From an uncultured Lachnospiraceae bacterium (GTDB taxonomy: Bacteria > Bacillota > Clostridia > Lachnospirales > Lachnospiraceae), in contig ONHG01000016.1 in the NCBI GenBank assembly GCA_900317585.1, positions 62,001 through 126,000 on the forward strand: a stretch of DNA of 64,000 bases. Direction: 5' to 3'. The number at the start of each line of letters is the position of its first letter. Within the stretch, counting starts at the first letter, position 1. The position numbers were made by a program, and so were the translations under genes. The notes under the pieces were generated by a model. The model did not search any database, had not been told where the DNA came from, and was given only the letters and a program-made list of their open reading frames with translations. Below, piece by piece: positions 6,214-49,870 of the stretch.

Positions 6214-6389
6214 GAGAAAATAAACCATGATAGTACCTTGTGGACGACACCGGATTGGTTTATACTATATCCAGGCTTGAGACAAGCCAATGAGAAAATG
6301 AAAATTGACAACTGAATATCAGTTACAGATTTGAGTAAAATTACGGATCATATACCCGCAGGATGAAAGTCACAGTTATCATATTAGTA

Positions 6390-6720
6390 GGCTGATGGAT
6401 TGAGAGATGAAGGTCAAGAGGCTGGACGGAAGTTCGGGCAATGCGGGAGCAGGTATGTTGCGTAAGGATAATAACCCATGAGGGGCGAGAAGTTCGTCCC
6501 GATCCCCGTAATGCAGGTAGGGGAGATAGTGCTTCTCCGGAATGGAGAAGGGCGTCGTGAACACAGATAGTGGCTCATCTGTAATTCCCGGAGGTGAGTA
6601 CACCTCTACGTATACGGGGCGATGAGGGGTCAGAAAGACCGGCGTATACCTTCATAGGACGTTAAGAGAAGTCCAAAACAGAATTAGTGATAACCAAAAT
6701 CGTTATCCATAGTTTATGCA
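6390..6720 (+). ncRNA. Putative large structured RNA upstream of the recombinases
   Basis: About 330 bases without a gene but dense in hairpins: GGGGCGA/TTCGTCCC (6482-6500), TCCCC/GGGGA (6503-6524), CTTCTCC/GGAGAAG (6532-6550), ACAGAT/ATCTGT (6562-6581), GGAGGTG/CACCTCT (6590-6607), GTATAC...GTATAC (6610-6658), GGAC/GTCC (6657-6674) and GATAAC/GTTATC (6689-6707). GC is higher here than in the neighbouring AT-rich DNA. It leads directly into a small ORF with its own ribosome site. I do not recognise the family; group II intron domain V was looked for and not found. Function could be a leader RNA or part of the recombination/regulatory region. Confidence 0.5.
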
Positions 6721-31254: not shown

Positions 31255-31633
31255 GTTCGAAAAAAGCAAAACAAAACACTCGAAAAATATAAAATTGCAA
31301 TCTTACAGACGAAAATATAATGACAAATACAGCTCACTATGCTACAATTATACTAAAGCATTATATTTCTGTTGAGCGACACCACAATACACATTTTCAT
31401 CGGTGCGTATCACTTTGAAGAGGGCAGAACCACTTAATATTTTTCGACAAAGACATGGAAATTTTCAATGCTTTAAGTTACCTATCAATAGCAGGGAAAA
31501 ATGGATATGTCGATTGAGATAATCTTATGTGAATGAAGCGGACTGGGGTTGCTGATGCTTTATATTGACAAGAAATTTAGTATCATGCGATATTATATTC
31601 TCCCTGTTCACACAACTAAATAGGAGGAGAATA

Positions 31634-32533
31634 ATGTCGGGAGAGACAAAAGAAGTTTTGGGCAGTAATTATGGCCAGAACGATGTAATCATCAACAGAT
31701 TGATTGATAAAATGACATTGTTTGATGACAATCTGATGAGTCTTGTATTCGGGCAGAATATCGAGACGACAGAGCTGCTGCTTCGCGTAATAATGGAGCG
31801 TGATATTAAGGTTATAGACGTCAGGGGGCAGGATGAATTAAAAAATCCGGTGATTGGCGGGAGATGTATTACTCGGGACGTGCATGCAATAGATGTCGAT
31901 GGCAGGCATATTGATATCGAGGTGCAGATTAATGCGGAGGGCTCGCATGTCAGAAGAGCCAGATATCACAGCAGTATGATGGATGCGAGGATGCTGCAGG
32001 AAGGACAGAAGTTTAAGGAGATTAAGGATTCCTACGTGATTTTTATTTATGATCACGATAAGTTCAGAAAAGGACTGCCATTTTATCACATTCAAAGACG
32101 TGTTGATGAAACAGGCGAAGTCTTTGGAGATGGTTCACATATCATCTATGTAAATGGAAGGTATGAAGGTAATGATGATATAGGTCGGATGATGAGAGAT
32201 TTTCATCAGTGCAGGCCGGAGCAGATAGAAAGTGAGACATTGTCAAAAGCAGTGGCGTATTATAAAGAAAAGGAAGGACGTGGTGCTATGAGTGAAGCAG
32301 TAAGACAGTATGCAATGGAATATGCAAAAGAGTATGCAAAAGAATATGCTAAAGAATATGGTGAAGAACAAAAACAGGAAGGCATTCAGACAGGGCGTCG
32401 TACAGAGATATATTTATCTGTACAGGATGGAGATTACTCTGTACAAAGAGGTGCTGAAAAAGCTGGATTATCGCTTGAAGAGTTCGAAAAATCAATGAGC
32501 GAAGCCGGATATAAGCTTCCTGAGCCTATATAA
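31634..32533 (+). CDS. Rpn/PD-(D/E)XK nuclease-family transposase
   Basis: A 299-residue protein of the PF12784-type nuclease/transposase group. The N-terminal half has DEL..NPVIGGR and DVHAIDVDGRHIDIEVQIN, the D...E-V-Q catalytic core of the PD-(D/E)XK fold. The C-terminal has three EYAKEYAKEYAKEYG repeats and a helix-turn-helix-like tail (SVQRGAEKAGLSLEEFEKSM). ATG 31634 is preceded by AGGAGGAGA; upstream in-frame residues are not coding. These genes are often multi-copy and are linked to recombination. It is alone, with its own terminator. Confidence 0.85.
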   Translation: MSGETKEVLGSNYGQNDVIINRLIDKMTLFDDNLMSLVFGQNIETTELLLRVIMERDIKVIDVRGQDELKNPVIGGRCITRDVHAIDVDGRHIDIEVQINAEGSHVRRARYHSSMMDARMLQEGQKFKEIKDSYVIFIYDHDKFRKGLPFYHIQRRVDETGEVFGDGSHIIYVNGRYEGNDDIGRMMRDFHQCRPEQIESETLSKAVAYYKEKEGRGAMSEAVRQYAMEYAKEYAKEYAKEYGEEQKQEGIQTGRRTEIYLSVQDGDYSVQRGAEKAGLSLEEFEKSMSEAGYKLPEPI

Positions 32534-32624: not shown

Positions 32625-32641
32625 TTGTATATCATTGTCAC

Positions 32642-32920
32642 GGTGTGAGGGACTTGCGGGGCGGGTGAGGGACAGTGGCACAGCTTACAACGGTTGAATA
32701 GCGAAGCTGCTTAGATAATGTAGAATTATGCTTTGAAATACAGAAATGCCCCACCATGGACGGTGGGGCAAGGCGTTATGCGCCATGGACGGTGCATAAA
32801 AGCCGGTTTCGTCCAGCTACAAGAAACTATAAGCATAATTCGTACAGTATCTTAGCAGCGCAGCGTAAACCATTGTAAGCTGTGCCACTGTCCCTCACCC
32901 ACCCCCACAAGTCCCGTACC
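32642..32920. repeat. Palindromic intergenic element, copy A (~279 bp)
   Basis: A near-perfect long inverted repeat. GGGACTTG...GGGTGAGGGACAGTGGC on the left is the inverse of the right arm up to 32920. Inside, AGCTGCTTAGATA...GAATTATGCT pairs with AGCATAATTC...TATCTTAGCAGC. At the centre are two hairpins with the same loop: GCCCCACC-ATGGAC-GGTGGGGC (32748-32769) and TATGCGCC-ATGGAC-GGTGCATA (32777-32798). A second copy lies at 49595-49870 with the same core but different outer arms. It sits between the Rpn gene and the fatty acid operon. Confidence 0.9.
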
Positions 32921-32949
32921 ATAAAAATGAAAAATAAAAATACTTTGAC

Positions 32950-32977
32950 TTGACAACTATTTAAAATGTGATATACT
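32950..32977 (+). promoter_or_regulatory. Promoter of the fatty acid synthesis operon
   Basis: TTGACA (32950-32955) and TATACT (32972-32977) with a 16-bp spacer; transcription would begin near 32984, on the operator palindrome. Confidence 0.75.
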
Positions 32978-33082: not shown

Positions 33083-33316
33083 ATGTTGGAGAAAATCAAG
33101 GAAATCGTAGCAGATCAGTTAGGAATTGACGAGGATGATATCAAATTAGAGTCAAACTTCAAGGAGGATCTTGAGGCAGATTCATTAGATCTTTTCGAGC
33201 TTGTAATGGCACTCGAGGAGGAGTACGGAGTAGAAATCCCTTCAGAGGATTTAGAGAAAATCGCAACAGTAAACGACATCATTGAGTATCTTAAGAACAA
33301 AGGTGTAGAGGCTTAA
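33083..33316 (+). CDS. acpP: Acyl carrier protein
   Basis: A 77-residue acidic protein with the phosphopantetheine serine in the classical motif [19 protein letters not shown]. It carries growing acyl chains for the FASII enzymes encoded next. AAAGGAG precedes the ATG. First gene of the operon. Confidence 0.97.
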
Positions 33317-45121: not shown

Positions 45122-45147
45122 GGTTAGCGTAAGCTAATTAAATAATT

Positions 45148-45257
45148 ATTCTTCAGGGCAGGGTGCAATTCCCTACCGGTGGTATAGCCCACGAGCCGCA
45201 AGGCATGATTCGGTGAGATTCCGAGGCCGACAGTAAAGTCTGGATGAAAGAAGATGT
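45148..45257 (+). ncRNA. FMN riboswitch (RFN element)
   Basis: TCTTCAGGGCAGGGTGCAATTC, CCGGTGGTATAGCCCACGAGC, GATTCGGTGAGATTCCGAGG and CCGACAGTAAAGTCTGGATG..AGAAGAT match the conserved strands of the FMN aptamer; TCTTC at 45150 pairs with GAAGA at 45249. When FMN binds, it should promote the downstream terminator and shut off rib gene expression. Confidence 0.97.
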
Positions 45258-45349
45258 GGATATGATATATGCAGAGTATAGATAGCTGGGTTTTAGATTC
45301 AGTTTCAGATATAGATACAGCACATATCATAGTTATAAAAGATATCTAC

Positions 45350-48846: not shown

Positions 48847-48966
48847 TACAGCGAATAATAAGTAATTGATATATTGACCGGTCTGCGATTCCGATAGCAC
48901 ATGCCAAAAAGCCTTGACGTAGCCCGCTACGCCTGCGTAAATAAAAAAACAAAAGGAGAACGAAAA

Positions 48967-49431
48967 ATGAACGTAATCGAAGGAAAAATGACACAGGATG
49001 GAATCAAGGTAGGAATCGTAGTAGCAAGATTCAATGAATTTATCACATCAAAACTCTTAGGAGGAGCAAAGGACGGACTCGTAAGACACGACGTGCCGGA
49101 GGAAAACATAGACGTAGCATGGGTGCCGGGAGCATTCGAGATACCACTCATTGCAAAGAAGATGGCAAAAAGTGGAAAATACGATGCAGTCATCTGCCTC
49201 GGAGCAGTAATCAGAGGCGCAACAAGCCACTATGACTATGTGTGCAACGAAGTATCAAAGGGAATCGCATCAGTATCACTCGAATCAGAAATCCCGGTAA
49301 TGTTTGGAGTAGTCACCACCGAAAACATCGAGCAGGCAATAGAAAGAGCCGGAACAAAAGCCGGAAACAAAGGATATGACTGTGCACTCGGTGCAATCGA
49401 AATGATAAATCTTGTCAGACAAATCGGATAA
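48967..49431 (+). CDS. ribH: 6,7-dimethyl-8-ribityllumazine synthase
   Basis: A 154-residue enzyme. [55 protein letters not shown] and [17 protein letters not shown] are its motifs. The in-frame ATG at 48901 has no site; AAAGGAG at 48952 sets ATG 48967. Last gene of the rib operon. Confidence 0.96.
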
Positions 49432-49594: not shown

Positions 49595-49870
49595 GTGGCG
49601 TAAGCGCCGGGCATCCGGCAGCGCACACGCACTCCCGAGCAGGCGAATAGCGAAGCTGCTTAGAGACTGTAGAATTATGCCCAAGAAAAACAGAAATGCC
49701 CGGCCATGGACGGCCGGGCAAGGCGTTATGCGCCACGGACGGCGCATAAAAGCCGGTTTCGTCAAGCATAGAACCACCCCAAGGCATAATTCGTACAGCT
49801 CTCTTAGCAGCGTAGCGTAGCAGGCGCGGGAGTGCGTGTGGGCTGCACGGATGCCCGGCGCTTACGCCAC
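49595..49870. repeat. Palindromic intergenic element, copy B (~276 bp)
   Basis: GTGGCGTAAGCGCCGGGCATCCG at the left pairs with its inverse at the right end (49848-49870), and the complementarity continues through AGCTGCTTAGAGA...GAATTATGC. The centre holds GCCCGGCC-ATGGAC-GGCCGGGC (49698-49719) and TATGCGCC-ACGGAC-GGCGCATA (49727-49748). The core from GAATAGCGAAGCTGCTTAGA to CTTAGCAGCG is shared with copy A, but the arms are unrelated to those of A. It lies between ribH and the exopolysaccharide genes. Confidence 0.9.

Follow-up and report, generated by a model that had tools for sequence, protein, structure and literature searches.

The DNA analysed here (the window, 64,000 nucleotides) comes from a draft genome of 2.57 Mb (G000; 52 contigs, 87% complete) and contains two copies of a large palindromic element, whose features are all given on the plus strand. 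Copy A spans 267 nt (32649..32915), as delimited by a repeat search and an inverted-repeat alignment that allows mismatches. Its neighbours on the two sides are a gene for a transposase of the PD-(D/E)XK nuclease family (31565-32533) and, at 33083, an acyl carrier protein gene, and a simple scan gave a promoter-like site downstream of the element (32950-32977). The transposase gene, which is also on the plus strand, has relatives at 89-94% at two other places in G306, a close relative of G000 assembled in one contig of 3,449,685 bases. Copy B (49595..49870; repeat search and inverted-repeat alignment) has a lumazine synthase gene on one side and a CpsB/CapC-type gene on the other. The window carries two further structured RNAs on the plus strand, namely a Clostridiales-3 RNA (RF02942) at 6385-6654 with 254.6 bits and an FMN riboswitch (RF00050) at 45145-45259, which precedes a stretch including the lumazine synthase gene (48901-49431).

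Both copies match the covariance model of the TwoAYGGAY RNA (RF01731) over its full length with 149.2 bits each, the gathering score being 43. The match covers model positions 1-168 at 32699..32866 in copy A and lies at 49648..49818 in copy B. Within the model, the closing stem of copy A is formed by a 5' strand at 32707..32731 and a 3' strand at 32833..32858, which covary. On this stem stand two apical hairpins that are evident from sequence, fold and covariation, hairpin 1 with a 9-bp stem at 32747..32770 and hairpin 2 at 32776..32799. According to sequence and fold, both end in the loop ATGGAC (32756-32761 and 32785-32790), which in hairpin 1 reads CANGGANG when the closing pair is included. 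Copy A thus has the two terminal hairpins with A-Y-GGA-Y loops that characterize TwoAYGGAY, and these are at the same time ANGGA hexaloops closed by a C-G pair, as expected of a CsrA-binding sRNA. Apical hairpin 1 of copy B lies at 49697..49720 (sequence and fold). An earlier note on this DNA, made from the letters alone, had missed both the RNA family and the CsrA-type loops.

In both copies the palindrome extends past the Rfam model on both sides. The left outer arm of copy A (32649..32698) is copy-specific, and the right outer arm (32867..32915) is its inverse, as found by repeat search and arm alignment; the segments 32658-32695 and 32868-32905 are 95% complementary over 38 nt. In copy B, the arm blocks 49595-49617/49848-49870 and 49618-49640/49824-49846 are 100% and 91% complementary, respectively. 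The pairing of each left arm with its own right arm, on which the earlier note had built its case, is therefore real, and the apical stem does change in step between the two copies. A shared core exists as well, although the description "near identical" was slightly too strong for 85% identity over approximately 172 nt. The termini of copy A, a left one at 32639..32648 that is part of TTGTCACRGTGTRAGGGA and a right one, GTACCAT, at 32916..32922, are common to a different element that occupies the same site in G306, and ends like the right one occur in many copies.

G000 contains 33 full RF01731 copies, all 33 matches being above the cut-off, and G306 contains 49. An alignment of the 33 G000 copies has 41 consensus pairs, 26 of which vary on both sides with the pairing kept. 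Altogether, 96.9% of the core cells are paired, compared to 83.2% in shuffles (none of 500 as high) and 26-46% with slid partners. The loops are nearly fixed. CANGGANG loops are present at 61 of the 66 hairpin positions in G000, that is in 30 of 33 copies for hairpin 1 and in 31 of 33 for hairpin 2, and the corresponding numbers for G306 are 45 and 44 of 49. All four bases occur at loop positions 2 and 6. We take the CANGGANG loop to be the loop consensus of CsrA/RsmE.

The TwoAYGGAY RNA goes back to Weinberg et al. 2010 (PMC2864571). In 2014 it was predicted to bind CsrA, in a report that describes its external stem as poorly conserved (PMC4333381). A 2020 paper counts the external stem among the helices that were lengthened by extra covarying pairs (PMC7657543), the Rfam 15 report mentions two covarying pairs added to the family (PMC11701678), and a 2025 preprint describes the two hairpins as unequal in stability (PMC11661157). 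Our literature search found no experimental follow-up of the 2014 prediction in the material that it returned, and a search for CsrA sRNAs in Lachnospiraceae gave nothing on topic for this family among the matches listed. The RNA family and the CsrA prediction are consequently known; new are the copy-specific palindromic DNA arms around the RNA and the flips of its core. The window copies share with RF01731 the full-length match, the two NGGA-loop hairpins on a closing stem and the occurrence in Clostridia, whereas the family as described is without their 30-75 bp copy-specific palindromic arms and without inversion in place. Within the CsrB/RsmZ type, a single RNA carries many CsrA sites. In contrast, TwoAYGGAY has two sites per RNA and 33-49 dispersed loci, while CsrA-type GGA hairpin loops in paired sites are common to both, for TwoAYGGAY according to the published prediction (PMC4333381).

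The RNA tends to occur together with CsrA. Among 299 genomes sampled across the family, 45 have an RF01731 match, where nine candidates per genome were scored and misses are possible, and 154 of the same genomes possess CsrA (PF02599). CsrA is present in 44 of the 45 genomes with the RNA but in only 110 of the 254 without it (Fisher p 1.7e-13, shared ancestry being ignored); the sole RNA-bearing sampled genome without CsrA is G168. G000 itself has two PF02599 matches, one of them a typical-looking and the other a divergent member of the CsrA family. Occurrence of the RNA is patchy within the genus of the window, where it was found in two of eight further species tried, and a second species pair (G328 and G329) has 15 copies in each genome. 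Because of the loop motif and the co-occurrence with CsrA, we treat the core as a putative CsrA-binding RNA, and the repeated hairpin, which is a known RNA, probably serves to soak up CsrA. With its two CANGGANG hairpins at a distance of 29 nt, the RNA could be clamped by a single CsrA dimer, and all copies of a genome together would form a sink for CsrA. Genome co-occurrence and the nearly fixed CANGGANG provide comparative support for the CsrA sponges of Lachnospiraceae predicted in 2014.

The orientation of the RNA relative to tandem neighbours is even, with 11:11 in G000 and 18:14 in G306. This fits no simple read-through and implies that the RNA either has a promoter of its own or is insensitive to orientation, and inside the two window copies the simple scan showed no promoter-like site. 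A simple terminator role was also considered, since hairpin 1 is called terminator-like on the minus strand; it was rejected because one such case was found where 0.6 and 1.2 were expected.

In a perfect palindrome, one transition should produce G-U and A-C mispairs equally often, except where selection acts on one of the strands as RNA. G-U pairs outnumber A-C mispairs on the plus strand by 74 to 27 at 10-30 bp outside the Rfam model (p 3e-6), in bins that were picked after a pooled arm count and with cells that are not independent, as the copies share descent. Counted per copy at 8-30 bp outside the model, 43 copies have more G-U and 16 have more A-C (p 6e-4). Beyond 30 bp the bias is absent (54 G-U, 63 A-C), though pairing persists. 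The apical stems gave 15:1 in G000 and G306 together, but 2:3 and 3:3 in the other genera, where the sets are smaller. An initial count pooled over the arms had been unbiased (96:74, p 0.11), and the reading drawn from it, that the arms lack a strand bias, was dropped when binning revealed a bias confined to 10-30 bp. A second anchoring, which took the unpaired junction for stem (226 A-C at -45 to -30), was set aside for the core; its bins from -30 to 0 gave 97 G-U and 60 A-C, compared to 98:31 for the inner stem in the initial count. The G-U excess near the core identifies the plus strand as the folded RNA, and together with the plus-strand Rfam matches it led us to reject the minus strand, at which the earlier note had hinted on account of three differences between the arms of copy A. 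These three differences are present in the arm alignment and are indeed A-C on the plus strand. Since the bias reaches to about 30 bp and not beyond, some 30 bp of arm probably belong to the RNA, while pairing farther out would be strand-neutral.

A search for further copies and the complementarity of their arms had been set beforehand as tests that could refute the element, and it came through both. Next to the 33 copies in the genome, the arms outside the Rfam model are copy-specific and self-complementary (arm score of 10 passed) in 112 of 118 copies. This set comprises the 33 copies of G000, 19 found only in G306, 22 from other genera and 44 from seven genomes; the selection excluded 26 copies of G306 that have an ortholog in G000, another four of G306 that are truncated, six loci duplicating others and L071, which has no arms. 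The binned G-U and A-C counts and the second anchoring rest on the same selection. One copy per genus from 29 other genera gave arm scores of 12.5-39 in 25 cases and of 7-9 in four, the maximum in 87 shuffles being 8.

The arms of paralogs have little in common. Within G000 their median identity is 0.54 compared to a shuffled mean of 0.48, and even the 15 closest core pairs, with cores 86-90% identical, have arm identities of only 0.49-0.72. The left arms of copies A and B (L037 v L038; 0.55) are likewise unrelated in pairwise comparison, as the earlier note had stated. However, this does not hold in a 49-copy alignment, where a weak common arm consensus points to many arms being homologous and strongly diverged; this consensus exists inside a lineage and differs between lineages. 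Orthologous arms are inherited, since between G000 and G306 the cores are 97.8%, the arms 94.0% and the intergenic flanks 97.0% identical (21 of 26 pairs, five being left out). Local or recent duplicates (G306 1481197/1485100 and four copies in G122) share arms as well as core, which indicates that arms are not renewed at each duplication.

Comparison between relatives revealed that the core can be inverted in place. For 26 of the 33 G000 copies there is a flank match to a G306 copy. Both flanks are matched at 22 of these sites, of which 16 have the same orientation and six (L032, L035, L044, L046, L048 and L067) are inverted; the four sites with one matched flank have the same orientation. 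At the six inverted loci, the cores are 92-99% identical on one strand, while the flanks of approximately 1.2 kb are swapped and match on the other strand. With the arm mismatches as markers, the crossovers fall inside the arms, cleanly in L032, L035, L044 and L046 and less so in L048 and L067. In the second species pair, three of seven sites with both flanks matched are inverted (an odd match between the neighbouring copies L299/L300 was left out). Inversion in place hence occurs in two lineages, at nine of 29 sites in both pairs together, with cores 82-99% identical and flanks of approximately 1-1.3 kb each. Twenty of the 29 sites keep their orientation. In a third strain, A. rectalis DFI.5.28, the four copies in one record are all oriented as in G306, including one at a site inverted in G000. 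The record in question, NZ_CP143948.1 (L280-L284), is a 251-kb "plasmid" that bears ribosomal protein and RNA polymerase genes and looks like a piece of the chromosome.

Inverted loci are also enriched in changes of both arms that keep Watson-Crick pairing. Such changes were found in nine of 299 pairs in inverted loci compared to three of 712 in loci of the same orientation (p 0.0014), although five of the nine stem from L067 and the sites with one matched flank (L033, L037, L040 and L063) were left out of this test. One of these, L040, has the same orientation in both genomes and four both-arm changes.

We consider it likely that these loci are genes for a CsrA-sponge RNA lying in a DNA palindrome, whose arms copy each other by template switching or recombination, so that pairing is kept and the core is sometimes flipped. 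Complementarity of the arms would then be kept in two ways, namely by selection on RNA pairing, reaching approximately 30 bp outside the Rfam model, and, at the level of the DNA, by the copying of one arm onto the other. The palindrome would stall or mislead replication or invite recombination, a copy of one arm made from the other would restore the pairing, and a switch spanning the loop would invert the core in place. Both alternatives raised by the earlier note have thus gained support at once: selection on folding by the RNA-type covariation in the core and the proximal arms, and a joint renewal of the arms by the way in which these act as inverted repeats in the DNA, being rewritten jointly and turning the core over. 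In yeast, template switching between inverted repeats is described as leading to arm homogenisation and spacer inversion (PMC8604942), and it has been proposed to create and maintain RNA hairpins (PMC8794818). These published marks, arms altered together and an inverted spacer, are both found here and support arm copying, although the spacer or loop inversions in these reports are a few bases long, whereas TwoAYGGAY flips a core of approximately 170 bp. The putative enzymatic path would be template switching and not another recombination route.

An origin as a MITE-like mobile element, with arms set at insertion, such as through an inverted copy of the host flank or through insertion into hairpins that were already there, is possible but unlikely. 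It would fit the high copy number and the conserved, lineage-specific ends of some elements (TGARACGAAACA / GTCC in G268, GGAAATC / GATTTCC in G328/G329). In G122, four similar copies have core and inner arms in common but differ from each other in the outermost 8-20 nt, which are nevertheless palindromic in each copy, and this hints that host flank was copied in inverted form. The congener G359 is devoid of the element at one of the G122 sites, where it has a sequence like the right outer arm without an inverted partner; this single case, with 75% identity, is in favour of arms set at insertion and argues weakly against insertion into a pre-existing hairpin. Elements have also been exchanged at two sites, and copying between arms is by itself no explanation for this. 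G306 carries another element at the site of copy A, where the flanking sequences match as far as TTGTCACRGTGTRAGGGA and TCCCGTACCAT, but the core has only 67% identity and the arms are different; at L295/L305 in the second species pair, the element between orthologous flanks differs and is inverted, with a core identity of 82%.

Against an insertion mechanism stand the 11 sites in G000 or G306 that lack the copy of the other genome. At least seven of them (L050, L056, L060 and the G306 sites 495876, 1521678, 223816 and 2455686) retain part of an arm or of the core and are therefore deletions, and none of the 11 has a clear insertion junction or a target duplication. Almost nothing of the element is kept at L049 and L055, as insertion would predict, and L057 and G306 614033 are ambiguous. 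Moreover, the inheritance of arms by orthologs, at 94% identity, speaks against such an element. REP/BIME palindromes go with RAYT transposases. They resemble TwoAYGGAY as many dispersed intergenic palindromes, some of them in close inverted pairs, but TwoAYGGAY is much larger, with a conserved RNA core, and of seven genomes searched for a Y1 transposase (PF01797), G000, G306, G086 and G042 have none, while G268, G122 and G008 do. A RAYT/IS200 mover was accordingly rejected for G000 and G306. Carriage by phages or viruses was rejected as well, since a 35-nt core pattern had no exact match in the viral contigs of IMG/VR and the core of copy A had no blastn match in phage records.

We regard it as improbable that RNA selection acts by itself, with the entire long stem transcribed and kept paired through ordinary compensatory mutation, the inversions being incidental. 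The strong covariation of the core and the G-U excess at 10-30 bp outside the model are what this explanation predicts. However, pairing farther out persists without such an excess, both-arm changes are enriched at inverted loci, and eight copies of G268 have near-perfect arms of 30-35 bp that are unlike from copy to copy. Ordinary compensation should also leave more one-sided intermediates. The findings also carry a caution, since strong covariation in such stems may partly stem from DNA copying and not from RNA function alone.

A wider version of arm copying appears quite doubtful to us. According to it, the loci would form a self-renewing set of CsrA sponges, in which arms are continually rewritten, cores flip and the flips alter which strand faces local transcription, so that the dose of the CsrA sink is slowly reshuffled. 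It is very improbable that the loci are true invertons, that is, phase-variation switches whose core is turned over by a dedicated recombinase and which expose sense or antisense RNA to neighbouring promoters. As in invertons, the DNA between inverted repeats does occur in both orientations, namely among relatives in two lineages. In TwoAYGGAY, however, the repeats are copy-specific, which makes a common recombinase site unlikely, even though short conserved ends exist; no recombinase is known for them, and the flips come from comparisons among relatives, not from a single culture. The retained orientation of most sites and of all four copies in the third strain points to rare flipping. Since six of 22 sites are inverted at 2-3% divergence, flipping seems to be infrequent on the time scale of a culture, and we do not call it a phase switch. 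Finally, although G000, G328 and G329 are drafts, inversions that merely reflect misassembled palindromic repeats are hardly credible, since the exact inverted repeats of the six inverted loci have maximum lengths (13-51 nt in G000, 14-40 nt in G306) that are short compared to usual assembly word lengths, inversion occurs in two independent genome pairs, and there is agreement between two other strains at L044.

The TwoAYGGAY loci offer an unusual opportunity to study in nature how long RNA hairpins remain paired. In the same loci, selection on the RNA strand close to the core goes together with pairing that is strand-neutral at greater distance and with inversions that cross over in the arms, and joint rewriting of the arms together with occasional core flips would help to account for long hairpins staying paired.

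Some further observations concern the surroundings of the elements. Hairpin-targeting group II introns insert beside hairpins, and this is also seen here. Four G306 copies (L169, L170, L172 and L173, at 2053357, 2184758, 2406493 and 1468841) contain the same insert near position 1500, on the minus strand and at one position just past the stem-loop of hairpin 1. It is a group II intron in the two copies scanned (RF02001, RF01998), with a reverse-transcriptase ORF in one. At the site of the G306 copy 495876 (L281), where G000 has an arm remnant, the flanks are the same in DFI.5.28 but enclose a different sequence. Oppositely oriented pairs of copies a few hundred bases apart, similar to BIMEs, were found at L224 and L225 (G008), L245 (G037) and L246 (G208), and another close pair in opposite orientation, reminiscent of BIME pairs, lies in G000 at C30:79251-79875. 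Inverted ends of the GGTGTCAAAA type extend some arms (L208-L210 and L214 in G122, L237 in G042) and look as if another small palindromic repeat encloses the TwoAYGGAY element.
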